NCBI RefSeq assembly: GCF_001280425.1
Contig: NZ_LIUF01000002.1
Coordinates: 806,001-870,000, forward strand
DNA: 64,000 bases
Origin: Haloarcula rubripromontorii
Lineage (GTDB): Archaea; Halobacteriota; Halobacteria; Halobacteriales; Haloarculaceae
Direction of reading: 5' to 3'
The number at the start of each line of letters is the position of its first letter. The stretch's first letter is position 1. The notes under the pieces were generated by a model. That model had not been told where the DNA came from and did no database searches. It saw nothing but the letters and a program-made list of their open reading frames with translations. The translations under genes and the position numbers were made by a program. Positions 15,595 to 27,961 of this stretch are shown piece after piece.

Positions 15595-16692
15595 ATGGCG
15601 GCCCGAGACTACTACAGCCGTGGACAGAATATAGTGTACAACCGCCCAGTACTCGTTATATTCGCGGTTATCGGCGTGTTCCTCGTCTTCGATATCTTTC
15701 GGCAGGTCGGAACTGGAACAATTGCCGCCACAGATCTCATGAGTTATCTCTGGAACGGTCTGGTACTCGGGATGTCGCTCGGACTGGCTGGCGTCGGCCT
15801 CTCGATGACATACAGCATCCTCAATTTCGCGAACTTTGCCCACGGAGACTTGATCACGAGCGGTGCGTTCGCCGGATGGGCGACGGCGTTTCTGATTGCC
15901 GGGCTAGGTGAATTTTCCGTCGAAGCGCTCGTCCTCATCGGTGGCCCGATCGCAGTCGGTTCGAACGAACTTGGCATCAACGTCGTCAATACCCCACTGG
16001 CCCTGCTGGCTGGCTTACTCGTCGCTGCGGTCCTGACAGCCGCCCTTTCGCTCTTACTGGATCGAATCGTGTTCAAGCCGATGCGTAGCGCCGACGGTGT
16101 AACGCTGATGATCGCCAGCGTCGGTGTCGCACTGTTCCTCCGTAACTTTATCACCTACTCATTCCTGACTGACAGCCGCGGGCTGACAGGCGGAAACGTC
16201 CCCCAGTTTACTCTGGCGGGTGTCACGTTGGGCGGGCACCAGATTACGCTGGTCGTCGTCGCCGCACTTCTGATGCTTGCTACCCATGTTCTGCTCCAGT
16301 ACACCAAGATTGGTACGGCGATGCGTGCGATGGCTGCGAACAAAGACCTCGCGAAAGTCACAGGCATCCCGACGGAGCGCGTCGTCAAACTCACCTGGAG
16401 TATCGGCGGCGGGCTTACCGGGTGTGCAGGCTTTCTTATCGCATTACAGCAGGGAACGCTCACAGTAACAATGGGATGGGACCTGCTGTTACTAGTGTTC
16501 GCAGCGGTCATCCTCGGCGGTGTCGGTTCGATCTACGGAGCAATGGTCGGCGGTGTCATCCTCGGAATCGTGAGCCGACTCGCACTCGTCTGGATTCCGG
16601 CCAGTTTCCTTCTGGTCGCGGCATTCGTCATGATGATCGTCATGCTGCTCGTGCGCCCATCGGGGCTGTTCAGTGGGAGGACGACGGCATGA
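15595..16692 (+). CDS. livH: Branched-chain amino acid ABC transporter permease
   Basis: A 365-residue membrane permease with eight or more hydrophobic segments. It carries the LivH signature LAGVGLSMTYSILNFANFAHGD near residues 60-80 and the coupling region AMAANKDLAKVTGIPTERVVKLTW. The ATG at 15595 is preceded by AAGATTTTTAAC (centre near 15568), a TATA-like box at the leaderless distance; the upstream frame extension from 15514 is rejected. The stop overlaps the livM start (ATGA). Confidence 0.9.
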   Translation: MAARDYYSRGQNIVYNRPVLVIFAVIGVFLVFDIFRQVGTGTIAATDLMSYLWNGLVLGMSLGLAGVGLSMTYSILNFANFAHGDLITSGAFAGWATAFLIAGLGEFSVEALVLIGGPIAVGSNELGINVVNTPLALLAGLLVAAVLTAALSLLLDRIVFKPMRSADGVTLMIASVGVALFLRNFITYSFLTDSRGLTGGNVPQFTLAGVTLGGHQITLVVVAALLMLATHVLLQYTKIGTAMRAMAANKDLAKVTGIPTERVVKLTWSIGGGLTGCAGFLIALQQGTLTVTMGWDLLLLVFAAVILGGVGSIYGAMVGGVILGIVSRLALVWIPASFLLVAAFVMMIVMLLVRPSGLFSGRTTA

Positions 16693-17996
16693 GTACGGGT
16701 TCTATTCAGGCACGGGCTGAGGGCTGGCTCGGCAACAACGACGTGCGCTTGCTCATCGCCCTGGCCCTCGCTATCGGGGGCCTGTACGCGCTTTTCAGTG
16801 CCGTCCTCGGGTTCCAACTGAACGGCACAGTCAACACGCTTCGCCGTGTCGCGTTTCTCTCGGCGATCTATGCAATGTTAGCGCTCGCGCTGAACCTCCA
16901 GTGGGGATACGCAGGCCTGTTCAATCTCGGTGCGGCTGGATTCATGGCCATCGGCGTTTACACGATGGGGATACTGGCTGCTCCAGTGACGGCCAGTCCG
17001 CCCGGCTTCGGGCTGCCGCTGCCGGTCGCGATTCTGGGTGCGATACTCGTGACCGGGGTCATTGGCGGCCTCGCAGCGTTGCCTGCAATCAGACTCCGTG
17101 CCGATTATCTGGCAATCGTCACTGTCGCGTTCTCGGAAATCGTGCGTCTCACATTACGTGCGCCGGAGTTCGCGAACACTCGCATTGCCGGCGTTGCATT
17201 CGGGACGGGCGGTGCGACGGGGCTGTCCTTGCCAGCGAACCCGATCCGGATTCTCTTTTACACGGACCCCGCCGCAACAGCTCCAGCACCCAATGCGCTG
17301 GGGACGGCGATATTCAGTGCCGTGGCACCGCTGGGAATCGAGGAGACGCTGGTTATCGGCTGGGCGTACGTGGTTGTGCTATGCCTCTGTCTCGGCCTCC
17401 TGTACTGGCTGATGGTCCGCATCGGCAAGTCACCGTTCGGACGGGTCCTCAAGAGCATCCGCGAGGACCAGCAGGTCACGCAAGCGCTGGGGAAGGACAC
17501 GCGCCGATTCAAGATCAAGACGTTCGCGCTCGGCTGTGCGCTCATGGGGCTCATCGCTATTCTCTGGCGTCTCTCCGGGGGGTATGCGTCGCCACGGATG
17601 TTCAAGCCGATACAGACGTTCTACATCTTCATTGCGCTGTTTATCGGTGGGACTGGGTCGCCAACGGGAAGTATCGTCGGCGGTGCTCTGTTCGCCAGTC
17701 TGCTCTTCGAGGGGCCCTCGTTCATCCGGCGAGTCGTGGCGGAGTACCTCCAGCTCAGCAACGCACCCGATACGCTTGTCGGTGCTCTCGCCGAGCTAGG
17801 AACCCTTGATGTCACACCATTGCTGGCGTATTCCGTGCAGGACGTGAGCATCTCCGCGCTCCGGCTCATGCTGTTAGGCATCGTTCTAGTGTATCTTATG
17901 CAACGGCATCCGGATGGCCTGCTGGGTCATCGAAAAGCAATCGCATCGAGCGTTGACCTCTCACGACAGGAGCCTCGCGAGGGCGACAATGAGTAA
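16689..17996 (+). CDS. livM: Branched-chain amino acid ABC transporter permease
   Basis: A 435-residue permease partner of LivH. Characteristic segments: LALNLQWGYAGLFNLGAAGFMAIG (near residues 60-83), RLRADYLAIVTVAFSEIVRLT, FGRVLKSIREDQQVTQALGKDTRRFKI (the cytoplasmic loop that contacts the ATPases) and FIALFIGGTGSPTGSIVGG. The start at 16689 overlaps the livH stop by four bases, and the gene's end overlaps livG by eight, which indicates translational coupling. The C-terminus is longer than in many bacterial LivM proteins. Confidence 0.9.
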   Translation: MSTGSIQARAEGWLGNNDVRLLIALALAIGGLYALFSAVLGFQLNGTVNTLRRVAFLSAIYAMLALALNLQWGYAGLFNLGAAGFMAIGVYTMGILAAPVTASPPGFGLPLPVAILGAILVTGVIGGLAALPAIRLRADYLAIVTVAFSEIVRLTLRAPEFANTRIAGVAFGTGGATGLSLPANPIRILFYTDPAATAPAPNALGTAIFSAVAPLGIEETLVIGWAYVVVLCLCLGLLYWLMVRIGKSPFGRVLKSIREDQQVTQALGKDTRRFKIKTFALGCALMGLIAILWRLSGGYASPRMFKPIQTFYIFIALFIGGTGSPTGSIVGGALFASLLFEGPSFIRRVVAEYLQLSNAPDTLVGALAELGTLDVTPLLAYSVQDVSISALRLMLLGIVLVYLMQRHPDGLLGHRKAIASSVDLSRQEPREGDNE

Positions 17997-18816
17997 GAAC
18001 GTACAAGCAACACCGCGCGACCGGTCCCAGAACGGACAGCAAGAACAGATACTCAAAGTGGAGAACCTGCGAAAGACCTTTGGCGGTATCACAGCTGTCG
18101 CAGATGTCTCATTCCACGTCGAAAAAGGGACGATCACCGGCCTGATCGGTCCGAACGGAGCAGGGAAGTCGACGACATTCGACCTCATTACCGGGGTGCA
18201 ACGTCCGGACGGGGGCGCAGTCGAGTTCAACAACACGGAAATCACCGGGTATCGGTCAGATCAGGTCGCAAATCAGGGTCTCGTCCGCACGTTCCAGATA
18301 GCCCGAGAACTCTCGGAGATGACTGTGCTGGAAAACCTGATGCTGGCACCGCAGGATCAGGCCGGCGAAGCAGTCTGGCGGGCGGTCCTCCCGCGAGCCA
18401 GAACACAGGTCATCGAGCAGGAAAAGGCGCTCCGAGAACAGGCCTGGGAGATGCTCGAACTATTCGAGATTGAACACGTCGCGCACGAATCCGCCGGCAA
18501 TCTCTCAGGGGGCCAACGGAAGCTACTGGAGATGGCGCGTGTGCTTATGACCGAGCCGGAGATGGTGCTGCTGGATGAGCCGCTTGCGGGAGTCAACCCA
18601 ACACTGGAAGAGAAACTCATTGATCGGTTGCATACGCTCAAAGAGCAGGGCTACACTTTCCTCTTCGTCGAACACGACATGGACGTTATTATGAACAACT
18701 GCGATACGGTCATCGTGATGCACCAGGGGAGTGTTCTCACAGAGGGGCACCCGGACGCAGTGAAAAACAACGACAAAGTCCTCGATGCATATCTCGGGGA
18801 AGAGGTGAAAGCATGA
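17989..18816 (+). CDS. livG: Branched-chain amino acid ABC transporter ATP-binding protein
   Basis: A 275-residue ABC ATPase: Walker A GPNGAGKSTT (near 55), Q-loop in LVRTFQIARELSEM, signature LSGGQRKLLEMARVL, Walker B MVLLDEPLAGVNP and the H-loop in FLFVEHDMDVIM. The VNP after Walker B and the C-terminal extension VLDAYLGEE are typical of LivG. The N-terminal ~20 residues are polar and unaligned with the family. It energises LivHM together with LivF. Confidence 0.92.
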   Translation: MSKNVQATPRDRSQNGQQEQILKVENLRKTFGGITAVADVSFHVEKGTITGLIGPNGAGKSTTFDLITGVQRPDGGAVEFNNTEITGYRSDQVANQGLVRTFQIARELSEMTVLENLMLAPQDQAGEAVWRAVLPRARTQVIEQEKALREQAWEMLELFEIEHVAHESAGNLSGGQRKLLEMARVLMTEPEMVLLDEPLAGVNPTLEEKLIDRLHTLKEQGYTFLFVEHDMDVIMNNCDTVIVMHQGSVLTEGHPDAVKNNDKVLDAYLGEEVKA

Positions 18817-19517
18817 GTTTGCTGTCAGTACAGCAACTGGACGCCGGGTACGGTGATCTGCAGATTCTCACAGATATCGACATGGAGGTCGGACAGGGCG
18901 AGTACATCACTATCGTCGGCCCGAACGGCGCAGGCAAGTCCACTGTGATGAAATCAGTGTTCGGACTGACGACGTACATGGGGGGTGAAATCGTCTTCAA
19001 CGACAGGGACATCGCCGGTGAACAACCGGAAGATATCATCTCATATGGGTTGAGCTTCGTCCCGCAAAGCAACAACGTGTTTGAGCCGTTGACGGTCACG
19101 GAGAACCTCAAGATGGGTGCTTACACGCTGGACAGATTCCCGGAAGAGCGGTTACAGGCGGTTTACAACCGGTTCCCGATACTGGAAACCCGGTCGGGGC
19201 AGAAAGCAGGGACACTATCAGGGGGGCAACAACAGATGCTGGCGATGGGCCGTGCGCTCATGCTTGATCCCGACCTGTTACTGCTTGACGAACCCAGCGC
19301 AGGTTTGGCACCAGATCTCGTCGATGAGATGTTTGACCGCATCGACGAGATCAACGACGCCGGTACCGCTGTCCTCCTCGTCGAACAAAACGCAAAAGAG
19401 GCATTGCGGCGGTGTGATCGCGGCTATGTCCTTGTACAGGGGCAGAATCGACACGAAGACAGCGGTGAGGCACTCCTCAACGACCAACAGGTCCGCAAAG
19501 ACTTTCTGGGCGGGTAG
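18813..19517 (+). CDS. livF: Branched-chain amino acid ABC transporter ATP-binding protein
   Basis: A 234-residue second ATPase of the Liv transporter. Walker A GPNGAGKSTVMK, SFVPQSNNVFEPLTVTENL (Q-loop), signature LSGGQQQMLAMGRALM, Walker B LLLLDEPSAGLAP and LLVEQNAKEAL (H-loop position carries Gln, as is common in LivF). ATG overlaps the livG stop. A run of six T (GGACTTTTTTCG, near 19546-19551) follows the stop and may act as the operon terminator. Confidence 0.92.
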   Translation: MSLLSVQQLDAGYGDLQILTDIDMEVGQGEYITIVGPNGAGKSTVMKSVFGLTTYMGGEIVFNDRDIAGEQPEDIISYGLSFVPQSNNVFEPLTVTENLKMGAYTLDRFPEERLQAVYNRFPILETRSGQKAGTLSGGQQQMLAMGRALMLDPDLLLLDEPSAGLAPDLVDEMFDRIDEINDAGTAVLLVEQNAKEALRRCDRGYVLVQGQNRHEDSGEALLNDQQVRKDFLGG

Positions 19518-19931
19518 CTCCTGTCGCCCAGTACTGGCTTAGAGGACTTTTTTCGAACAAAAGCGTCTCCGTGAGATTCTCTACGGGCCGTTGAGCCGTC
19601 ACGGGCTGTTGTGTCCATAACGGCGCATATTCAGTGCCCGGATTTCCACACTGCAGCCCCGGATTCAATGAAATTATAGAGATTTGATGTATGTACCTCT
19701 TCACAGCACGCCATTATATCACAGTATCCGTATTAACGGCTGCATATCCACTCTGTTACCAGTATCGCAAGATGGAGAATGTGTGTGTGTTATGGTTTAT
19801 TATATTTCACTTCCTTTTCGACCGACGCCGCTTCGGACCTGTAACTGTCCCCGTTCACATCGGAATAGCTACTGTTACGTGTGAACGAGTGTCGCACAAA
19901 CAATAAGTATCTACCATGTCAGACTTCGCAT
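19518..19931. other. Intergenic region between livF and microprotein A
   Basis: 414 bases, AT-rich after 19680. It holds the presumed livF terminator T-run, and GTGTGAACG at 19880-19888, a box also found upstream of microprotein B. A TATA-like AATAAG near 19902-19907 is set about 28 nt before microprotein A. Otherwise I see no gene. Confidence 0.45.
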
Positions 19932-20054
19932 ATGCATCCGGGCTTGAACCCTACCGCCTGCCCTGCAGGTCAGCTGTCCCGGCAGTTAATGGACTGGGCA
20001 CTGCCCTCCGCCACAGCCCCGTCTTTTACATTTTCGACATTTAAACTGGCGTAG
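19932..20054 (+). CDS. Leaderless microprotein, copy A (M-x-P-G family)
   Basis: A 40-codon gene: begins MHPGLNPTAC, has LSRQLM in the middle and SFTFSTFKLA at the end. Two other genes in this window (26347-26454 minus, 26605-26709 plus) share M-x-P-G, S-R-[QHK]-[LA]-[MI] and [FY]-T-F-[FS] in the same order although their DNA has diverged, which supports coding. A TATA-like AATAAG lies about 28 nt upstream, so the start codon is near the transcript 5' end. The TAG stop lies inside the conserved GTAGACC box of the stem element that follows. No known domain is recognised. The 2-oxoacid dehydrogenase E1 alpha gene begins 144 bases after the stop. Confidence 0.5.
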   Translation: MHPGLNPTACPAGQLSRQLMDWALPSATAPSFTFSTFKLA

Positions 20055-20100
20055 ACCGCTAGCGCACAGGAGGTCCCTGTGCCCTGGTGGAAAACGCCAG
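20046..20100 (+). repeat. Stem element A with GTAGACC and GGTGGAAAAC boxes
   Basis: A 55-nt element. Outer arms CTGGCGT (20046-20052) and ACGCCAG (20094-20100) pair fully; an inner stem GCACAGG/CCTGTGC is closed by a 5-base loop. GTAGACC and GGTGGAAAAC flank the inner stem and recur in copies at 26301-26355 and 26711-26766. Arm bases differ between copies A and B by a compensatory pair (G-C versus A-T). It may be an RNA regulatory element or processing/termination structure; its function is unknown. Confidence 0.6.
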
Positions 20101-20197
20101 CCTTGAACACGCTCGGAGAGCTGTACCCAGCGGCTGTTCGGGTTCTCAGGGTCTGTCGAGGGAGCGTCTATCGAATATACAAACATCATCGAAAACA

Positions 20198-21346
20198 ATG
20201 AACATGAAAAACGAAGCAGGAAACACGGACTTGCCAGCGCCCGTCAGACAAGACTCGGAGCTAGTCCAGGTACTGGATGCTGAAGGCAACGTATTACCGC
20301 AGGCGTCTGTCCCGGATCTCTCAGACAGGGAGTTACTTGAGCTGTATGAGACAATCAAGCTCGCCCGTCACTTCGATCAGCGGGCGATCAGCTTCCAGCG
20401 ACAGGGACGACTGGCGACGTACGCACCAATGACCGGGCAGGAGGGGTCACAGGTCGCCACGAGCATGGCGCTTGCCGAGCAAGACTGGCTGTTCCCAACT
20501 TACAGAGAGCACGCGGCAAAGTACGCTCACGGAATGGAGCTGGCATCCCTCTTCGAACCACTGCGAGGCTATCGGGACGGATATGCAATCCCTGAAGATG
20601 TCAACGTGATGCCTGAGTATATTCCGATAGCGACTCAGGTTCCGCAGGCTATGGGAATGGCCTGGGGACACAAGCTACAGGGAAAGACCGATACGGCCGT
20701 CCTGTGTCACCTCGGTGATGGTGCGACCTCCGAAGGAGACTTCCACGAAGGACTGAATTTCGCCGGTGTATTCGACGTCCCTGCTGTGTTCGTCTGTAAC
20801 AACAATCAATGGGCGATTTCGGTCCCGCGAGAGCGACAGACTGCGAGCGAAACCATCGCTACAAAGGCACAGGCATACGGTATCGACAGCGTTCGTGTCG
20901 ACGGGCTGGACCCGCTCGCGGTCTACAAAGTCACCAGTGAGGCACTGGAGAAAGCTCGGAATCCGGCTCCCGGTGAGCTGCGGCCAACGCTTATCGAATC
21001 TGTCCAGTATCGCTTCGGCGCTCACACCACTGCGGATGACCCGTCCGTTTACAGAGACGAATCGGAGGAGGAGGCCTGGCGAGACCGCGACCCAGTGGAC
21101 CGCATCGAAAAGTACCTCTACAACGAGGATATCCTCGATTCGGACCTCGAAAGTGAGATCCAAGACCGAATCGAACAGGCGGTCAGCGAAGCGATAGAGA
21201 CAGCCGAACAGACGGAGACGAGTCCGGACAACATCGTTGAGCACGTGTACGACGACGTTCCGGCACGACTCGAAGAACAGCGGGACGAACTGAACCGACT
21301 GCGGGAAAAGTACGACGACGGCGCGTTCTCGGAGGTGCTGGAATGA
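20198..21346 (+). CDS. 2-oxoacid dehydrogenase E1 component, alpha subunit
   Basis: A 382-residue ThDP-binding alpha subunit of a pyruvate/branched-chain 2-oxoacid dehydrogenase complex. Markers: YETIKLARHFDQRAISFQRQG, PTYREHAA, the ThDP motif CHLGDGATSEGDFHEGLNFAGVF ending with VFVCNNNQWAIS, and the phosphorylation-loop region RFGAHTTADDPSVYR. The ATG at 20198 follows a TATA-like AATATA (20174-20179) at about 22-25 nt. Four genes follow in tight coupling to make the whole complex. Adjacency to Liv transport genes and an aminotransferase points to branched-chain 2-oxoacids rather than pyruvate, but this is inference. Confidence 0.88.
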   Translation: MNMKNEAGNTDLPAPVRQDSELVQVLDAEGNVLPQASVPDLSDRELLELYETIKLARHFDQRAISFQRQGRLATYAPMTGQEGSQVATSMALAEQDWLFPTYREHAAKYAHGMELASLFEPLRGYRDGYAIPEDVNVMPEYIPIATQVPQAMGMAWGHKLQGKTDTAVLCHLGDGATSEGDFHEGLNFAGVFDVPAVFVCNNNQWAISVPRERQTASETIATKAQAYGIDSVRVDGLDPLAVYKVTSEALEKARNPAPGELRPTLIESVQYRFGAHTTADDPSVYRDESEEEAWRDRDPVDRIEKYLYNEDILDSDLESEIQDRIEQAVSEAIETAEQTETSPDNIVEHVYDDVPARLEEQRDELNRLREKYDDGAFSEVLE

Positions 21347-22359
21347 GTTCGACAGCCAGCACGCAGTCGGGGCAAACGGTTCAGCGTCTCGCTCTCGTGG
21401 AGGCGATACAGGACGGGTTGTACACTGAAATGGCACAGGACGACAGCGTCGTCGTGCTGGGCGAAGATGTCGGAAAGAACGGCGGTGTCTTCAGAGCGAC
21501 CGACCAGCTCTACGAGGAGTTCGGTGAAGACCGCGTCATCGACACGCCACTGGCAGAAGCCGGAATTATCGGGGCTTCGATTGGACTTGCCCAGACCGGC
21601 ATGAAGCCCGTTCCCGAGATGCAGTTCATGGGCTTCATGTATCCTGCCTTCGATCAGATTGTCAGTCACGCCGCTCGCCTTCGGAGCCGTAGCCAGGGAC
21701 AGTATTCGGTGCCGATGGTGATACGGGCTCCGTACGGCGGTGGCATCCGAGCCCCAGAACACCACTCCGAGTCGAAGGAAGCGTTCTTCGTGCACGAGCC
21801 CGGTCTCAAGGTCGTCTCGCCGAGTACCCCCTACGATGCAAAGGGACTGCTGGCGGCGTCCATCCACGACCCGGATCCAGTCATCTTCCTGGAGCCGAAG
21901 TTGATCTACCGCGCCTTCCGTGAAGATGTCCCGACGAAACCGTATGCCGTGTCGCTGAGTGAGGCTGCTGTCCGGCGGGAGGGGAACGACATCTCAGTCT
22001 ACACTTGGGGCGCGATGACCCGGCCGGCACTGATTGCTGCGGAGAATCTGAGCCAGTCGCATGGCATCGATGCCGAAGTCATCGACCTGCGAACCCTGTC
22101 TCCCCTCGATATAGAGACGATCACCGACTCGTTTAAAAAGACCGGGCGAGCCGCGATTGTCCACGAAGCACCGAAGACTGGCGGATTGGGAGCCGAAATC
22201 GCAACGACGATTCAGGAGGAAGCGCTCGTGCATCAGGAAGCGCCGATCAAGCGAATCGCCGGCTTCGATGCCCCCATGCCACTCCACTCGTTAGAGGACT
22301 ACTACCTGCCACAGGCGGTCCGTATCCAGGACGGAATTCGCGAAACGGTCGACTTCTAA
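21343..22359 (+). CDS. 2-oxoacid dehydrogenase E1 component, beta subunit
   Basis: A 338-residue transketolase-type beta subunit. It shows LVEAIQDGLYTEMAQDDSVVVLGEDVGKNGGVFRATDQL, then DTPLAEAGIIGASIGLAQTGMKPVPEMQFMGF, the GGGIRAPEHHSES loop and a C-terminal swivel domain with EVIDLRTLSPLD and IVHEAPKTGGLGAEI. It forms an alpha2beta2 heterotetramer with the alpha subunit and decarboxylates the 2-oxoacid, passing the acyl group to the E2 lipoyl arm. The start overlaps the alpha stop by four bases. Confidence 0.9.
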   Translation: MSSTASTQSGQTVQRLALVEAIQDGLYTEMAQDDSVVVLGEDVGKNGGVFRATDQLYEEFGEDRVIDTPLAEAGIIGASIGLAQTGMKPVPEMQFMGFMYPAFDQIVSHAARLRSRSQGQYSVPMVIRAPYGGGIRAPEHHSESKEAFFVHEPGLKVVSPSTPYDAKGLLAASIHDPDPVIFLEPKLIYRAFREDVPTKPYAVSLSEAAVRREGNDISVYTWGAMTRPALIAAENLSQSHGIDAEVIDLRTLSPLDIETITDSFKKTGRAAIVHEAPKTGGLGAEIATTIQEEALVHQEAPIKRIAGFDAPMPLHSLEDYYLPQAVRIQDGIRETVDF

Positions 22360-22360
22360 C

Positions 22361-23875
22361 ATGGTACGCGAATTCGAACTCCCCGATGTCGGTGAAGGCG
22401 TCGCCGAGGGCGAACTGCTTCGCTGGCGCGTTGCGCCGGGCGACGCAGTTTCGGAAGACCAGCCAGTAGCGGAAGTCGAGACCGACAAAGCCGTCGTTGA
22501 TGTTCCGTCCCCAGTCGACGGTGTCGTCGAAGAACTCCGTGCTACGGAAGGTGAGGTTGTCCCGGTCGGTGATGTGATTGTCGTCTTCCGGGTAGATGGT
22601 GAAACCGACTCAGACGGAACCGAAGTAACGCCTCCAGATGACGCCACCTCGGAAAGTGGCCAGCAGACCGATGACGAAGCTGCACCACAGCCAGCCGGAG
22701 ATGCGCAGTCAGATCCAGCGGTGACCCAGAGCGTCCAAATCCCCGCACCGCCGTCCGTACGGCGTCTCGCCCGGGAACTAGGCGTTGATATTTCCAGCAT
22801 TGCAGATTCGTCTCCCGGGCGTATAACGGAATCGGATGTCCGCGCGTACGCGAGCGAGTCCTCAACTCAGGAACGTTCAAGTCACCAGACCGCGGCTGCA
22901 AAGCAACGAGAACAGCAGCCAGCCCCGGCGCAGTCTGTCAGTTCGGCACAGATGCAAGAAACGGCAGACCGGGAAACGACCGTTGCCGTTCCGAAAACCA
23001 GACACATCGCAGCGGAGGAAGGAATTGACCTCAATACCGTTCCCACCGATGAACGAAAAGACGGCGAACCCTTTGTCACGCTCGAAACGGTCCGGGAGTA
23101 CGCAGAGGCACAGAAAACGGATCGAGAAGCGGTAACCAAGAGAGAAGCGACAGACGAGCCAGCGCGCCCGGAATCTCGGAAACCGTACAACGGGATCAGG
23201 CAGTCGATTGGATCGGCGATGACATCGTCGAAATACACGGCCCCGCACGTCACCCATCAGGACGAGGTCGATGTCACCGCTCTGGTCGACGCCCGCTCGG
23301 ACCTCAAACAGGAGGCCGAGGAGCACGATATCCGACTGACGTATCTGCCGTTCGTGATGAAAGCGTGCGCCGCGGCCTTACAAGAGAACCCACAGGTAAA
23401 CGTCTCTCTCGACGAAGCAAACGAGGAGATCGTCGAGAAACAGTACTACAATATCGGTGTCGCAACGGCGACTGATGACGGCCTGCTGGTTCCTGTCGTC
23501 GAGGATGTCGATACGAAGGGCCTGCTCGAAGTCGCCGCTGAAACCTACGAAAAGACTCAGAAGGCCAGAGAACGGAGTCTTTCGCCGGAAGAAATGCGTG
23601 GCGGGACATTTACCATCTCGAACATCGGCGGAATAGGCGGGGAGTACGGGACCCCGATCATCAACCAACCGGAGAGCGCCATCCTGGCACTGGGAGAAAT
23701 AAAAAAGAAGCCACGAGTCGTCGAAAGTGATGGTGAGGAGACGATAGAACCCCGCCACGTCATGACCCTCTCGCTGTCGTTCGACCACCGAGTGCTTGAC
23801 GGCGCAGACGCCGCCCAGTTCACGAATGCCGTACAGAAATACCTGCGAAATCCAAATCTGCTACTACTAGAATAA
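22361..23875 (+). CDS. 2-oxoacid dehydrogenase E2, dihydrolipoamide acyltransferase
   Basis: 504 residues. Domains in order: one lipoyl domain (residues 1-80, lipoyl Lys in VETDKAVVDVPSP near 43) and a long acidic linker. Next come a peripheral subunit-binding domain (PSVRRLARELGVDI, near 129-163), a second Ala/Pro/Gln-rich linker, and a second segment of the same type (KTRHIAAEEGIDL, near 207-245). The catalytic acyltransferase domain (from about 270) carries the conserved His-Asp pair in FDHRVLDGADAAQF near the end. The doubled subunit-binding region is unusual. One base separates it from E1 beta, and its stop overlaps the E3 start. Confidence 0.9.
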   Translation: MVREFELPDVGEGVAEGELLRWRVAPGDAVSEDQPVAEVETDKAVVDVPSPVDGVVEELRATEGEVVPVGDVIVVFRVDGETDSDGTEVTPPDDATSESGQQTDDEAAPQPAGDAQSDPAVTQSVQIPAPPSVRRLARELGVDISSIADSSPGRITESDVRAYASESSTQERSSHQTAAAKQREQQPAPAQSVSSAQMQETADRETTVAVPKTRHIAAEEGIDLNTVPTDERKDGEPFVTLETVREYAEAQKTDREAVTKREATDEPARPESRKPYNGIRQSIGSAMTSSKYTAPHVTHQDEVDVTALVDARSDLKQEAEEHDIRLTYLPFVMKACAAALQENPQVNVSLDEANEEIVEKQYYNIGVATATDDGLLVPVVEDVDTKGLLEVAAETYEKTQKARERSLSPEEMRGGTFTISNIGGIGGEYGTPIINQPESAILALGEIKKKPRVVESDGEETIEPRHVMTLSLSFDHRVLDGADAAQFTNAVQKYLRNPNLLLLE

Positions 23876-25308
23876 TGGTTGTCGGAGATGTAACTACGTC
23901 GACTGACGTACTGGTTATTGGGGCGGGTCCCGGCGGATACGCCGCCGCAATCCGCGCTGCACAGCTTGACCTCGATGTCACGCTCGTGGAAAAGGAAGCG
24001 TATGGCGGTGCCTGTCTCAACCGTGGCTGTATTCCCTCAAAGGCGCTGATAAACGGTTCAAAACTGGCTTCGAAGGCGGGCAACTCGGAGGAACTGGGAA
24101 TTTACGCAGACCCGACGGTTGCGCTTGACGAGATGATGGACTGGAAAGACGGCGTCGTCGATCAATTAACAAGCGGTATCGAACAACTGTGTACGGCAGC
24201 TGGCGTGAACCTGCTGCAAGGGACTGCCGAATTTGCTGCTGAAAACAAGATCAGAATCGTCCATCAGGGTGAGGGACAGGGGTCTGAATCGCTGAAATTC
24301 GAACGCTGCATCATCGCGACAGGGTCCAGACCGGTTGCAATCCCGGGATTCGACTTCGATGACGAGTATATCGTTTCCTCCGCCGGCGCTCTGTCCCTCG
24401 AAACAGTACCCGACGAACTCGCAATCGTTGGAGCCGGATACATCGGCATGGAGCTGGCGACCGTCTACAGCCGACTTGGAAGCGACGTCACGGTCATTGA
24501 GATGCTGGAGCAAGCGCTTCCCAGCTATGAGCGAGACATTGCTTCGGTAGTCCGCCAGCGAGCGGAGAATCTCGGTGTGGATTTCCATTTCGGGTACACT
24601 GCGGATAGCTGGGCGGCGTCTGGTGACAAGGCCGTTCTGACTGCTGTCCCCGCCGACGAAGCGGCAGATGATAGCGATGTAGAGATCACCGCCGAAAAAA
24701 TACTGGTCGCTGTCGGCCGACGTCCGGTGACTGACACGCTCAGTATCGATGCCGCTGGCGTCGAAACCAATTCTCAGGGGTTCATTCCAACGGATAGCAG
24801 GTGCCGGACGAACAAGGAGCATATTTTCGCGGTCGGTGACGTTGCTGGTGAACCGATGCTCGCGCACAAGGGATCGAAAGAAGGGGAAGTTGCGGCGGAA
24901 GTAATCGCCGGCGAACCCGCGGCAGTCGATTATCAGGCCCTCCCGGCTGCCGTGTTTACCGAGCCGGAAATCGGAACTGTCGGGCTCACCACGACCCAAG
25001 CAGCGAACGAGGGTATTACGCCAGTTACAGGTAAGTTCCAGTTTCAGGCGTCTGGCCGGGCACTAACAGCAAACCGGACGGACGGCTTTGTCCGAATTGT
25101 CGCCGCAAAAGAGACCGAACGCGTGATCGGTGCACAGATTGTCGGTCCGGAGGCATCCGAGTTGATTGCAGAAATCGCAGCAATGATCGAAATGGGTGCA
25201 AAGCTTCAAGACATCGGCTCCACGGTCCACACGCATCCAACACTAAGTGAATCAGTAATGGAAGCTGCACAGAACGCAAGAGGGAAAGCGATACATAAAC
25301 GCAACTGA
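23875..25308 (+). CDS. lpdA: 2-oxoacid dehydrogenase E3, dihydrolipoamide dehydrogenase
   Basis: A 477-residue flavoprotein disulfide reductase. FAD motif VIGAGPGGYAAAIRAAQ, redox cysteines in GGACLNRGCIPSKALI (Cys-x4-Cys, near 46-51), NAD motif IVGAGYIGMELATVY, second FAD motif HIFAVGDVAGEPMLAHKG and the C-terminal His-Glu dyad in VHTHPTLSESVMEAA. It reoxidises E2 dihydrolipoamide with NAD. Its ATG overlaps the E2 stop by one base (TAATG), making this the last gene of the operon. Confidence 0.93.
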   Translation: MVVGDVTTSTDVLVIGAGPGGYAAAIRAAQLDLDVTLVEKEAYGGACLNRGCIPSKALINGSKLASKAGNSEELGIYADPTVALDEMMDWKDGVVDQLTSGIEQLCTAAGVNLLQGTAEFAAENKIRIVHQGEGQGSESLKFERCIIATGSRPVAIPGFDFDDEYIVSSAGALSLETVPDELAIVGAGYIGMELATVYSRLGSDVTVIEMLEQALPSYERDIASVVRQRAENLGVDFHFGYTADSWAASGDKAVLTAVPADEAADDSDVEITAEKILVAVGRRPVTDTLSIDAAGVETNSQGFIPTDSRCRTNKEHIFAVGDVAGEPMLAHKGSKEGEVAAEVIAGEPAAVDYQALPAAVFTEPEIGTVGLTTTQAANEGITPVTGKFQFQASGRALTANRTDGFVRIVAAKETERVIGAQIVGPEASELIAEIAAMIEMGAKLQDIGSTVHTHPTLSESVMEAAQNARGKAIHKRN

Positions 25309-25334
25309 CTGACCGAATTGAGACTTCGGTCCCT

Positions 25335-25637
25335 CTATCTACGTCCAAATTGTGAGAGACGCCACTCAATTATGGCCCATACGAAACTCTCTGCTGCCTC
25401 GAAGCCGTAACTCCGGAACAGACCGCCGCTAGCGAACTCCACATCTTCCTTGCTGGCCATGTACGCCCCCAGACAGGCCCAACGGCGGATGTCGGCTACG
25501 AACCAGTATCAGTCGTTTGCGACTGTTTTGGTTGCGCTGCCGTCACTGGTGCGTAGCTTGCTGTCTTCTTCGGGTCTCGGTACGTCTGTTGGTAACTCTT
25601 CGTACAGGATCCCCTTGCTGTCGTTGTAGTATGTCAT
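25335..25637 (-). pseudogene. Small hypothetical protein gene interrupted by an in-frame stop
   Basis: Reading leftward from the ATG at 25637 gives 42 residues beginning MTYYNDSKGILYEELPTDVP. A TGA follows at 25509-25511, and another 58 in-frame codons (YWFVADIRRWACLG ... YGFEAAESFVWAI) run to a TAG at 25335. Both parts have haloarchaeal-like composition and look like one ~100-residue protein. A sequencing error, recent nonsense mutation or genuine short protein are all possible. No domain is recognised. Confidence 0.45.
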
Positions 25638-25946
25638 GCCATCTCATGGCTCGTGGACACACCTAAACCCATCCCTTATGTTATATCATTGAATATTAAC
25701 ACTCAGGGGAAATTTATATATCAAACAATCCAGCAGAACGGCAAAATAGTGTATCTGTGTGGCGAATCCGGATAGAACCGGGGCACTCAAACTATTTCTG
25801 GGACGAATACATGGGAAACCAGTCCTATTTCGTGAATTGTGATTATTTGATTATCTTCTATACAGGTTATAATATGAATATCTTGCAGTATCTTCGACAG
25901 GATCGTATATTTGAGGTCTGTAACAGCCGAAATCCAAACAGGAATC

Positions 25947-26222
25947 TCAGATATTGGGGTACTGCGATGTCATGCATTCCTCTTCACAGAAAAAATGCTC
26001 TGTTATCTCTCCGTCTGAGTCTCGTATCGTTAGACCGCTGTACCTCATCTGTTCGCTGATCACCTGCCCACAGTAGTCGCAACGGTAGGTCGGTGACCCA
26101 CCAACCAAGACTCGGGTCGACTTGTTTGTGACAATCAGTTCGGCAGTGGTTGTGTTGCCGCTGACTTCCATAGCGCGGCGACCGGTTGCTAGCGACTTTT
26201 CTGCGTCAGTTTGTCCATTCAT
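25947..26222 (-). CDS. Small zinc-finger protein, paralogue 1 (CxxCG...FCxxxC)
   Basis: 91 residues. The C-terminal half has a four-Cys metal site, RCDYCGQVI followed 25 residues later by HFFCEEEC, and between them a beta-rich stretch (MRYSGLTIRDSDGEITE). It matches gene 26868-27146 along its length, and the shared N-terminus MN[GA]Q fixes the start at 26222 rather than the upstream in-frame codon at 26273. It resembles small haloarchaeal treble-clef/CPxCG-like proteins (DUF7576 type), whose roles are largely unknown. A microprotein gene and a stem element lie just upstream on the same strand. Confidence 0.7.
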   Translation of the reverse strand: MNGQTDAEKSLATGRRAMEVSGNTTTAELIVTNKSTRVLVGGSPTYRCDYCGQVISEQMRYSGLTIRDSDGEITEHFFCEEECMTSQYPNI

Positions 26223-26300
26223 CGTTCGTATCGATTCGTTGTTGACGGACTCGTCCCATCGACTGATCCACACTACTCCACAGTCGCGATAATCGACTCA

Positions 26301-26355
26301 CCGACGTTTTCCACCGATGCGGGGGTTCTGCCCGGACTGCGATGGTCTACGCGGG
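26301..26355 (-). repeat. Stem element C with GTAGACC and GGTGGAAAAC boxes
   Basis: Minus-strand copy of the 55-nt element. Arms CCCGCGT (26355-26349) and ACGTCGG (26307-26301) pair with one mismatch and one wobble. GTAGACC (26350-26344) and GGTGGAAAACG are identical to the other copies, while the inner sequence differs. It overlaps the stop codon of microprotein C and ends 79 bases before zinc-finger paralogue 1. Confidence 0.55.
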
Positions 26356-26454
26356 GTACAGAGCAGGCGGTGTAAAAAACGTATAACCGGTCGCTACGGC
26401 GATTGCTGCCATCGCTTTCCGGGACGCTTCTCTCGTCGGGAAACCCGGCTCCAT
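26347..26454 (-). CDS. Leaderless microprotein, copy C (M-x-P-G family)
   Basis: 35 codons: starts MEPGFPTREASRKAM, continues AAIAVATGYTFFTPPALYPA and stops at a TAG inside the GTAGACC box. It shares M-x-P-G, S-R-K-A-M and Y-T-F-F with copies A and B. A TATA-like TTAAATA (minus strand, 26482-26476) is about 27 nt upstream, which places the ATG at the transcript start. An AACCA-TT-TGGTT inverted repeat lies next to that box. The gene is divergent from copy B, with 150 bases between the start codons, and lies upstream of zinc-finger paralogue 1. Confidence 0.5.
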   Translation of the reverse strand: MEPGFPTREASRKAMAAIAVATGYTFFTPPALYPA

Positions 26455-26604
26455 GTACCAACATAACAAATTATTGTATTTAACCATTTGGTTAGTTCCT
26501 CTCAACCCATCCACTGAGATGTGGCCGTCTGCAAACCCGGATACTTGCTGGGTGTGAACGTCACTCACATAATTATTAAGTGTACATCCAGTGAAATTGC
26601 GCCT
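26455..26604. promoter_or_regulatory. Divergent promoter region between microproteins C and B
   Basis: 150 bases with two TATA-like boxes: minus-strand TTAAATA at 26476-26482 for copy C, and plus-strand ATTATTAAG near 26572-26580 for copy B. GTGTGAACG at 26552-26560 also occurs upstream of copy A at a similar distance from its TATA box, so it may be a regulator site. Confidence 0.45.
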
Positions 26605-26709
26605 ATGAATCCGGGCGTCGACTGTACGGCTTGGAAAGCAAGCCCGCTGTCCCGGCACTTGATCGGTACGGATCGTTCTACATCCGGTTTTACATTTTTC
26701 AAATTTTAA
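26605..26709 (+). CDS. Leaderless microprotein, copy B (M-x-P-G family)
   Basis: 34 codons: begins MNPGVDCTAWKAS, then PLSRHLIG, ending TSGFTFFKF and TAA. It aligns with copy A over its whole length (M-x-P-G, T-A, L-S-R-x-L, F-T-F). The TAA ends just before the outer arm of stem element B, so here the GTAGACC box is outside the frame. A TATA-like ATTATTAAG is about 29 nt upstream. The zinc-finger paralogue 2 gene starts 158 bases after the stop. Confidence 0.5.
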   Translation: MNPGVDCTAWKASPLSRHLIGTDRSTSGFTFFKF

Positions 26710-26710
26710 A

Positions 26711-26766
26711 CTGACGTAGACCACCACAGTGCGGGCAAACGCCCGCACACAGGTGGAAAACGTCAG
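26711..26766 (+). repeat. Stem element B with GTAGACC and GGTGGAAAAC boxes
   Basis: 56 nt. Outer arms CTGACGT (26711-26717) and ACGTCAG (26760-26766) pair fully; inner stem GTGCGGGC/GCCCGCAC is closed by AAAC. The boxes match copies A and C. Against copy A, the fourth arm pair changes from G-C to A-T and the inner stem is replaced by a different, fully paired one, indicating selection for structure. Confidence 0.6.
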
Positions 26767-26867
26767 TTCTGGCTGGTCTCCAGAGCACCGGCCAACGGCA
26801 TCGGGTCGCGATGACCCATCACACGACGCGCTGTGACACAAACTACAAATCCACACTCAGCACCATC

Positions 26868-27146
26868 ATGAACGCACAAAACACGCAGGAGTATCGTAGC
26901 CAACAACCAGCGGACATCGCAAACGCAGACCAGGCCCGGAATGCCGCCCCCGAGAGTGTCGAGAGCCAATCTATCAGGGTCGTCATTAGCTCGATTGCAA
27001 CGCGCCACTGCGACCACTGCGGAGCACCGATCGGAGAAAACGTCCAGTATCGAAACGTCACTACCAGAGATAGGGCTGGTAACGTCACGGAATACGCGTT
27101 CTGTAGCGTCGACTGTAAGTCCGCCCGGTTCCCGAGGCTCGACTGA
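26868..27146 (+). CDS. Small zinc-finger protein, paralogue 2 (CxxCG...FCxxxC)
   Basis: 92 residues, homologous to gene 25947-26222. It has HCDHCGAPIGENVQYRNVTTRD, then YAFCSVDCKSARFP, giving four Cys ligands spaced like a treble clef. The N-terminal 45 residues are polar and variable. Start at ATG 26868 by comparison with the paralogue; the longer frame from 26811 is rejected. No enzymatic motif is visible; a protein- or nucleic-acid-binding role is possible. It is the distal gene of the plus-strand microprotein module. Confidence 0.7.
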   Translation: MNAQNTQEYRSQQPADIANADQARNAAPESVESQSIRVVISSIATRHCDHCGAPIGENVQYRNVTTRDRAGNVTEYAFCSVDCKSARFPRLD

Positions 27147-27230
27147 TTACTTTCTGTCGCGGGACTCCGTCCGCTTACAGACCCGCTGTCTGAGCTCCCA
27201 GCGTTCCTGCGCCTGGCTGGGCAGAAACCC

Positions 27231-27845
27231 TCATGCGGACTGGCAGTCGCAGCCACTCTGTTCCAGAAACGCGACAACATCGTAGCTACGCCCACAGTCC
27301 TCACACAGCACCTGTAGTTCGTTGATGATGTTGAAATCGCCTGCCGAGATGGCGTCGTTCTTTTCTAGACTCTCGATAGTTTGCCTCGTTACAGCGGTCG
27401 TTCGCCCCCGGAGGCGCTGTACTCTGTCGATGGCACGTTCCTTCCGTTCTGCGGGTGTCTGCTCAGGTCTGGCCGCGCCCCGGTCGTTCTTGAGATAGCG
27501 ATACACCGTCTGGTGGGAGATAAAATCAGCCATCACAGATTCGATATCGACTCCACTCTGTTCGAGGCGGGAGCGTATGAGTGGGGCGTCGGCGTCGTCT
27601 TCACTGAGTGACTGATAGACCTGTTGGATATCGCCACTCAATGTCGGGGCGTCAACCCCTTCGATAGCGGTTTCGAGCACTGATTGATTGAAATAATCCG
27701 CAAGGTCGCGGGTGCTTTGTTCCTCTCCATCGTCACCAACCCATCGGCTCTCGAGTTCTGCACCCATCCCGACAAGACCGTACTTCTGAATCACGGCATC
27801 GACCTTGCTCGTTCCTCCACCGGACTGTGGGTCGTCTGTGGTCAT
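27231..27845 (-). CDS. rdfA: Rod-determining factor RdfA
   Basis: 204 residues. The N-terminal part reads KVDAVIQKYGLVGMGAELESRW, then RDLADYFNQSVLETAI (a helix-turn-helix-like segment). A middle SHQTVYRYLKNDRG follows, then a helical RxxAVTxxTIESL segment and a C-terminal Cys cluster CEDCG...CDC. This layout is that of the haloarchaeal rod-determining factor A family, needed for the rod/motile cell form in Haloferax. The start at 27845 gives the family N-terminus. Its zinc-ribbon end suggests metal binding. It is convergent with zinc-finger paralogue 2. Confidence 0.75.
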   Translation of the reverse strand: MTTDDPQSGGGTSKVDAVIQKYGLVGMGAELESRWVGDDGEEQSTRDLADYFNQSVLETAIEGVDAPTLSGDIQQVYQSLSEDDADAPLIRSRLEQSGVDIESVMADFISHQTVYRYLKNDRGAARPEQTPAERKERAIDRVQRLRGRTTAVTRQTIESLEKNDAISAGDFNIINELQVLCEDCGRSYDVVAFLEQSGCDCQSA

Positions 27846-27961
27846 GATTCGATTTACGTGGTACCCATAGTTACTAAACACTCCCGCATATCCAGAGGCC
27901 CACCGAGGTCCCGCGCACGCAGAGACCTACCAGACCCGTACTCCGGGATATGCTGGCAGAT

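Follow-up and report, generated by a model that had tools for sequence, protein, structure and literature searches.

Organization of the locus

The window (the entire 64,000-nt stretch of Haloarcula rubripromontorii DNA analysed here) contains two half-modules that face away from each other, each of which comprises a putative promoter, an apparently leaderless open reading frame (ORF) of 31-40 codons with a T-rich tail, a stem element of approximately 57 nt and a DUF7576 zinc-finger gene. A sequence-only reading of this DNA had described this duplication, and the two ORFs, the two zinc-finger genes and both stem elements are indeed present where it put them, with the start codons of the divergent ORFs 150 nt apart. 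The two half-modules are real, but a third full copy of ORF and stem (19932-20101) had been missed. Its stem, at 20045-20101, was revealed by a covariance model for which copy A and two relatives from outside the genus served as input. The three copies, referred to as P, A and B, precede a 2-oxoacid dehydrogenase operon, zinc-finger gene A and zinc-finger gene B, respectively:

19879..19901 (+): operator-like motif of copy P (GTGTGAACGAGTGTCGCACAAAC), exact in this genome and in genome G012 and aligned in 12 genomes
19902..19909 (+): TATA-like element of copy P (AATAAG), putative promoter, invariant in 12 genomes
19932..20054 (+): leader ORF P (MHPGLNPTACPAGQLSRQLMDWALPSATAPSFTFSTFKLA, then stop), 40 codons in 12/12 Haloarcula genomes
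20045..20101 (+): stem element P, 43.5 bits with covariance model R1 and 72.7 bits with R2
20198..25308 (+): 2-oxoacid (pyruvate-type) dehydrogenase operon, E1alpha-E1beta-E2-E3 (NCBIfam TIGR03181, 438 bits; TIGR01350, 515 bits)
25947..26222 (-): zinc-finger gene B, DUF7576-like (26.3 bits with Pfam, narrowly under the cut-off)
26300..26356 (-): stem element B, decaying (covariance model, 31.9 bits)
26347..26454 (-): leader ORF B (MEPGFPTREASRKAMAAIAVATGYTFFTPPALYPA, then stop), decaying, with a variable stop position and a T6 tract in most copies
26477..26484 (-): putative TATA-like element of copy B (GGTTAAATAC), from the alignment
26552..26574 (+): operator-like motif of copy A (GTGTGAACGTCACTCACATAATT), from sequence comparison and alignment
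26573..26580 (+): putative TATA-like element of copy A, from the alignment
26605..26709 (+): leader ORF A (MNPGVDCTAWKASPLSRHLIGTDRSTSGFTFFKF, then stop) with a T-rich tail (TTTTACATTTTTCAAATTTTAA) containing T5C, in 12/12 genomes
26710..26767 (+): stem element A, three helices of 8+5+8 bp separated by two 3x3 internal loops
26868..27146 (+): zinc-finger gene A, DUF7576 (Pfam, 34.2 bits)

ORFs A and B look leaderless because, in alignments of the divergent pair, conserved TATA-like elements lie approximately 27-30 nt upstream of each ATG, and the same reasoning applies to ORF P, whose TATA-like element is approximately 28 nt before the start. The operator-like motif of copy P recurs with two mismatches upstream of copy A, and the form GTGTGAAC-N5-TCRCA is common to both copies. 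The stop codon of each leader ORF sits at or inside the 5' arm of the covarying stem (the TAG of ORF P falls inside stem P) and is followed by a spacer of approximately 80-100 nt that leads to the gene. In all leaders, 107-158 nt separate the stop codon from the start of the gene. Additional conserved hairpins (GGCTGGT..ACCGGCC and GGGTCGCGATGACCC) are observed at 26770-26835 (+), between stem A and zinc-finger gene A, and the spacer of copy P is likewise conserved and structured.

The dehydrogenase operon begins directly downstream of leader P, and its end adjoins zinc-finger gene B. When copy P is included in the covariance model, P is found in all 12 genomes that contain the zinc-finger pair, approximately 6-7 kb from the pair, whereas no P leader is present in the other Haloarcula genomes searched. 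An E1alpha ortholog with at least 92% identity occurs in exactly the 12 Haloarcula genomes with leader P. Directly 5' of this leader, LivM/LivG/LivF-type branched-chain amino acid ABC transporter genes are located at 16422-19517 (+), and Liv-type transporter genes are conserved in the other Haloarcula loci read.

The zinc-finger proteins

The zinc-finger proteins are 91-92 aa in length, share the invariant residues C48, C51, C79 and C83, and begin with MNAQ or MNGQ (the common MN[GA]Q start of these paralogs had been noted previously); they are 30% identical. Protein A passes the DUF7576 (PF24461) cut-off of 27 bits. The AlphaFold2 model of this protein has a mean pLDDT of 75.7, with values of approximately 90 over residues 31-90. 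No solved structure is significantly related to the zinc finger by sequence (the best is a TFIIS finger, with an E value of 0.05), and matches to PARP/ligase-III fingers in a fold search are weak and not significant (E values of 0.04-0.4, with probabilities of up to 0.99).

A gene for an RdfA-family protein (PF21811, 221 bits) is located at 27231-27881 (-), convergent with zinc-finger gene A. Most RdfA-family genes adjoin an SMC-like gene (PMC10869688); no SMC-like partner gene was recognised beside this one.

Structure and covariation of the stem element

Stem A folds with a free energy of -42.9 kcal/mol and a z-score of -8.2 relative to shuffled sequences, far from chance. Stem B on its own folds no better than shuffles (z = -0.2), yet is clearly homologous in sequence, and a pattern derived from stems A and B together matches only these two sites in the whole 3.97-Mb genome. 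When copies A and P are taken together (14 distinct sequences), 95.5% of the positions of the three-helix structure form standard pairs, compared with 29-40% in slid controls. Seven pairs are changed on both sides, and the covariation score is 0.30 versus 0.19 in shuffled alignments, none of which (0/500) reaches the observed value. The third helix is largely replaced between A and P by compensatory changes that keep the pairing, and the structure accommodates many G-U pairs. Conservation across the three Haloarcula copies is highest at the AGA/AAA internal loop and the pairs on either side of it. In copy B, pairs are lost in several genomes.

No Rfam family reaches its gathering score in the window, none is found at E <= 1 over 19800-27200, and the window contains no tRNA or tmRNA. 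A box H/ACA guide RNA, which the 3x3 internal loops had brought into consideration, is likewise without an Rfam match. In the consensus folds, neither an antiterminator hairpin that is mutually exclusive with a terminator, as in bacteria, nor a terminator hairpin followed by a T-run was found; the T-run lies before the single conserved stem. A possible antiterminator, in which ACGTTTT of the ORF tail would pair with AAAACGT in the 3' arm of the stem, was rejected, since consensus folding prefers the stem.

Constraint and codon usage in the leader ORFs

The dN/dS ratios, which are based on 28-40 codons, are 0.29 for ORF P, 0.40 for ORF A and 1.35 for ORF B, compared with 0.81-1.33 for P and A in their two alternative frames. 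ORFs P and A are thus under weak purifying selection, with constraint on the reading frame. ORF P is of constant length and follows the pattern MHPG...LSR...FTFSTFKLA-stop, the indels in ORF A are of 9 nt and remain in frame, and both predicted leader peptides conserve an M-P-G start and an LSR motif. Copy B is decaying in both ORF and stem, as indicated by its dN/dS ratio, a stop codon that wanders between genomes and a stem that folds like shuffled sequence. The existence of two microproteins, as proposed previously, is therefore safe for A (and holds for P), but B shows no protein-level constraint.

The tails of all nine diverged leaders (9/9) are rich in Phe and Thr, and the T-rich run, in which TTT-ACA codons are repeated, is read in frame as Phe-Thr in every one. 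TTT accounts for 30/43 tail Phe codons (70%) in the nine leaders versus 21/99 (21%) in neighbouring genes, and ACA accounts for 25/36 tail Thr codons (69%) versus 41/236 (17%). The word TTYACA occurs 33 times in 128 kb (both strands of the 64 kb) and never twice within 60 nt, whereas six of the eight tails counted hold 2-4 such words. Runs of five or more T residues appear once in 11 kb of coding strand and in 7/9 leaders, with P taken in its majority form: T5C is present in the tails of A, G072, G110, G063 and G343, and B and the majority of P copies have T6. The tails of P in this genome, of G415 and of G403 contain T4 at most. Because the T-rich run is always in frame as Phe-Thr, the sequences suggest that selection acts at the codon level and not solely on the nucleotide sequence.

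Distribution of the leaders

The zinc-finger pair is present in 12/32 Haloarcula genomes, including named, culturable species such as H. japonica and H. amylolytica, and absent from 20. A search for the co-occurrence of ORF, stem and zinc finger, which the sequence-only reading had proposed, finds both ORFs and both stems in the same divergent layout in all 12 genomes that carry the pair (in G009, copy B is visibly decayed), and finds an ORF, a stem region and a zinc finger as a single copy in six genomes of two other genera. In Haloarcula, P, A and B travel as one inherited syntenic block, which represents a single linkage event, and kinship inflates the raw counts; the independent weight comes from the other genera. 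In Haloarcula sinaiiensis pHsi540 (locus L129, 105000-120000), copy A and zinc-finger gene A are missing, and leader P, copy B and zinc-finger gene B remain, with a transposase-like sequence beside copy B, which makes this a natural test strain.

A zinc-finger profile run over 392 genomes of the order matches 21 genomes. Outside Haloarcula, a single leader of the same plan precedes the zinc-finger gene in G072 and G110, which belong to one genus of another family, and in G063, G415, G343 and G403, which belong to one genus (g18) of the same family. In these six leaders, a TATA-like element is followed approximately 28 nt later by an ORF of 37-46 codons with a Phe-Thr-rich tail, potential stem-loops start near the stop codon, and 107-146 nt separate the stop codon from the gene. 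The ORFs have diverged, and in genus g18 the stem sequence is largely unrelated. A 10-bp stem in G415 (CTGGCGTAGG/CCTGCGCCGG) and the position of its stop codon match the Haloarcula plan, the stem in G403 (GATGTGTTC/GAACACATC) is unrelated to Haloarcula in sequence, and the folds in G063 and G343 are not better than those of shuffles. The spacers of G415 and G403 (L185 and L188) have GTTCGTTGCCAGCG[AG]AC in common, approximately 100 nt before the zinc finger, though their main stems differ.

No such leader lies upstream of the zinc-finger genes of G218, G437 and G100, and none was seen before other DUF7576 genes in these genomes. Covariance-model matches with E values of 0.001-0.1 in G061, G418, G220, G258, G406, G286, G269, G008 and G020 were rejected, as they have no leader ORF or T-tract. 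Short-pattern matches outside Haloarcula lie inside coding sequence and were attributed to chance, with reversed control patterns giving similar numbers.

The E1alpha genes of G100, G071 and G099 are preceded by leader ORFs with an F-T-F/V-x-LA tail, and in these genomes and G054 the arm TCCGCCAG, close to the ATG, has its complement in CTGGCGGA at the tail. The ORF upstream of E1alpha-E1beta at four loci from other genera (L114, L115, L116 and L119) looks leaderless and starts with M[AV]SAS. At the same loci, TTCCGCCAG near the ATG is complementary to CTGGCGGAA approximately 100 nt later, with a G-U change in L119; this is an alternative pairing of the same motif. Additionally, a zinc finger of the subfamily adjoins E1alpha-E1beta in G100 (L114, 9418-9795, -) in a different arrangement and without a stem leader, which constitutes a second association of the zinc finger with the dehydrogenase enzyme.

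The observed unit is a regulatory leader and not a microprotein/zinc-finger system, because copy P precedes a metabolic operon and some zinc-finger genes have no leader. The earlier proposal that the three parts work as one unit holds insofar as they are linked and regulatory in character, but an obligatory role of the zinc finger as third part is not supported: copy P is followed by the dehydrogenase operon, and some zinc-finger genes have no leader. That a conserved cis-regulatory leader is common to the three transcription units is well supported and very probable.

Possible mechanisms of regulation

The leaders may function as archaeal leader-ORF attenuators, in which translation of the leader ORF would control termination at its own tail; judged from the sequences, we place the chance of this just short of even. 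This reading is favored because a putative terminator occupies the tail of the leader ORF, the stop codon lies at the stem, and a metabolic operon follows. Work on Haloferax volcanii showed in vivo termination of 95% of transcripts at a T5C stretch, and its authors remark that coding regions seldom contain T stretches (PMC7237163). FttA termination needs U-rich RNA approximately 30-36 nt behind the polymerase (PMC11616081). The U-rich tail would thus be a haloarchaeal terminator inside the leader ORF. A leading ribosome that follows the polymerase to the stop codon would cover the U-tract and open the stem, and the polymerase would read into the operon. If the ribosome falls behind on the leader or does not translate it, the U-tract would lie exposed when the polymerase has advanced some 30-60 nt beyond it into the stem, where T5C termination or FttA cleavage would end the transcript. 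That FttA and the ribosome may compete sterically has been suggested (PMC11616081). The zinc finger would be a co-regulated partner that possibly feeds back on the same leaders. The fuller version, in which the terminator is written in the Phe-Thr codons of a leaderless ORF and the device has been copied to the dehydrogenase operon and the zinc-finger pair with possible feedback, is somewhat less probable and is put forward tentatively. Against attenuation, the tails of this genome's P, of G415 and of G403 have no run longer than T4, copy B has retained T6 although its ORF shows no protein constraint, no bacterial-type antiterminator hairpin was found, and the three Haloarcula copies are inherited as a single block.

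The main rival explanation, which we consider unlikely, is that the zinc-finger protein recognises the conserved stem with its internal loop (GUAGACC/GGUGGAAAAC) in the leaders of the zinc-finger mRNAs and of the dehydrogenase operon, and thereby represses or activates all three post-transcriptionally, with a minor part for the leader ORF. In favor of such binding, the internal loop and the pairs beside it are the most conserved nucleotides in all three copies, the zinc-finger genes adjoin the dehydrogenase operon, and the fold weakly resembles the nucleic-acid-binding PARP/ligase-III fingers. However, the fold match is not significant, the stem sequence differs in genus g18 while the ORF tail persists, G100, G218 and G437 have the finger without the leader, and H. 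sinaiiensis keeps leader P and copy B in the absence of finger A. Less probable again is a 5' UTR that acts on translation or senses a ligand (riboswitch-like, or with reinitiation limited by the leader ORF) and does not involve regulated termination. Although several conserved hairpins follow the main stem in A and P and the interval between stop codon and gene start is kept at 107-158 nt in all leaders, no Rfam match is obtained even at E = 1, the conserved unpaired core would make a very small ligand pocket, and the spacer is long for direct reinitiation; the T-runs and the choice of TTT and ACA codons would be left unexplained.

The persistence of tail, codons and stop position between genera in which the N-terminal parts of the peptides hardly align argues against microproteins that act in trans, for instance on the dehydrogenase or the zinc finger, with the stem protecting or ending their mRNA. 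The dN/dS ratios below 1 for P and A and the conserved M-P-G start and LSR motif would suit such peptides, but B is unconstrained, and each intact copy lies immediately 5' of a larger gene; we regard this explanation as improbable, behind both of the preceding ones. Finally, the dyad is a near-perfect inverted repeat, such that the covariance model also matches the reverse strand, which would be expected of a DNA operator or a mobile repeat for which the RNA is irrelevant. This explanation is very improbable: the tolerated G-U pairs fit RNA better than DNA, only three copies exist per genome and always at the same genes, and no flanking repeats typical of mobile elements are seen.

Comparison with known systems

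The putatively P-controlled operon is of the same type (E1alpha-E1beta-E2-E3) as the haloarchaeal 2-oxoacid dehydrogenase operons of van Ooyen and Soppa (2007) and of related studies, which are cited in PMC8305020. A literature search found no description of a leader ORF or stem 5' of a haloarchaeal 2-oxoacid dehydrogenase operon. The micro-proteins of Haloferax volcanii with two C(P)XCG motifs (PMC6562870, PMC10716476) are likewise small, haloarchaeal, predicted to bind zinc and likely regulatory. An assignment of zinc fingers A and B to this group was rejected, since those proteins are shorter than 70 aa and have two such motifs, whereas the proteins described here have 91-92 aa, one CxxCG and one CxxxC, and belong to DUF7576. 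If the zinc finger did bind the stem, it would act on its own mRNA as autoregulating ribosomal proteins do.

The U-rich signal itself is similar to the haloarchaeal T5C and FttA/aCPSF1 terminators (PMC7237163, PMC11616081, PMC8716108); however, the known terminators mark gene ends in intergenic DNA, whereas the signal here lies in a leader ORF before candidate targets. The leaders are short and occur in culturable species, and would offer a direct way to find out if U-rich terminators are shielded by ribosomes in archaea, a question left by the structural work on FttA (PMC11616081).

The bacterial trp, phe, thr and ilv attenuators resemble the leaders described here in having a short, codon-biased leader ORF whose stop codon is next to a strong hairpin, and a likely premature-termination signal before a metabolic operon. 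They differ in that the T-run here is before the hairpin and inside the ORF, the host is an archaeon and the mRNA is apparently leaderless; additionally, no terminator hairpin with a following T-run and no alternative antiterminator was found in these leaders. Leader-peptide attenuation is textbook regulation in bacteria, but no archaeal example is known to us as established, and none emerged from a text search that combined haloarchaea with leader peptides and attenuation. The leaders also provide a first regulatory context for a DUF7576 zinc finger and a haloarchaeal 2-oxoacid dehydrogenase and, if the attenuator reading is correct, would represent an archaeal version of the bacterial "attenuator" switches.
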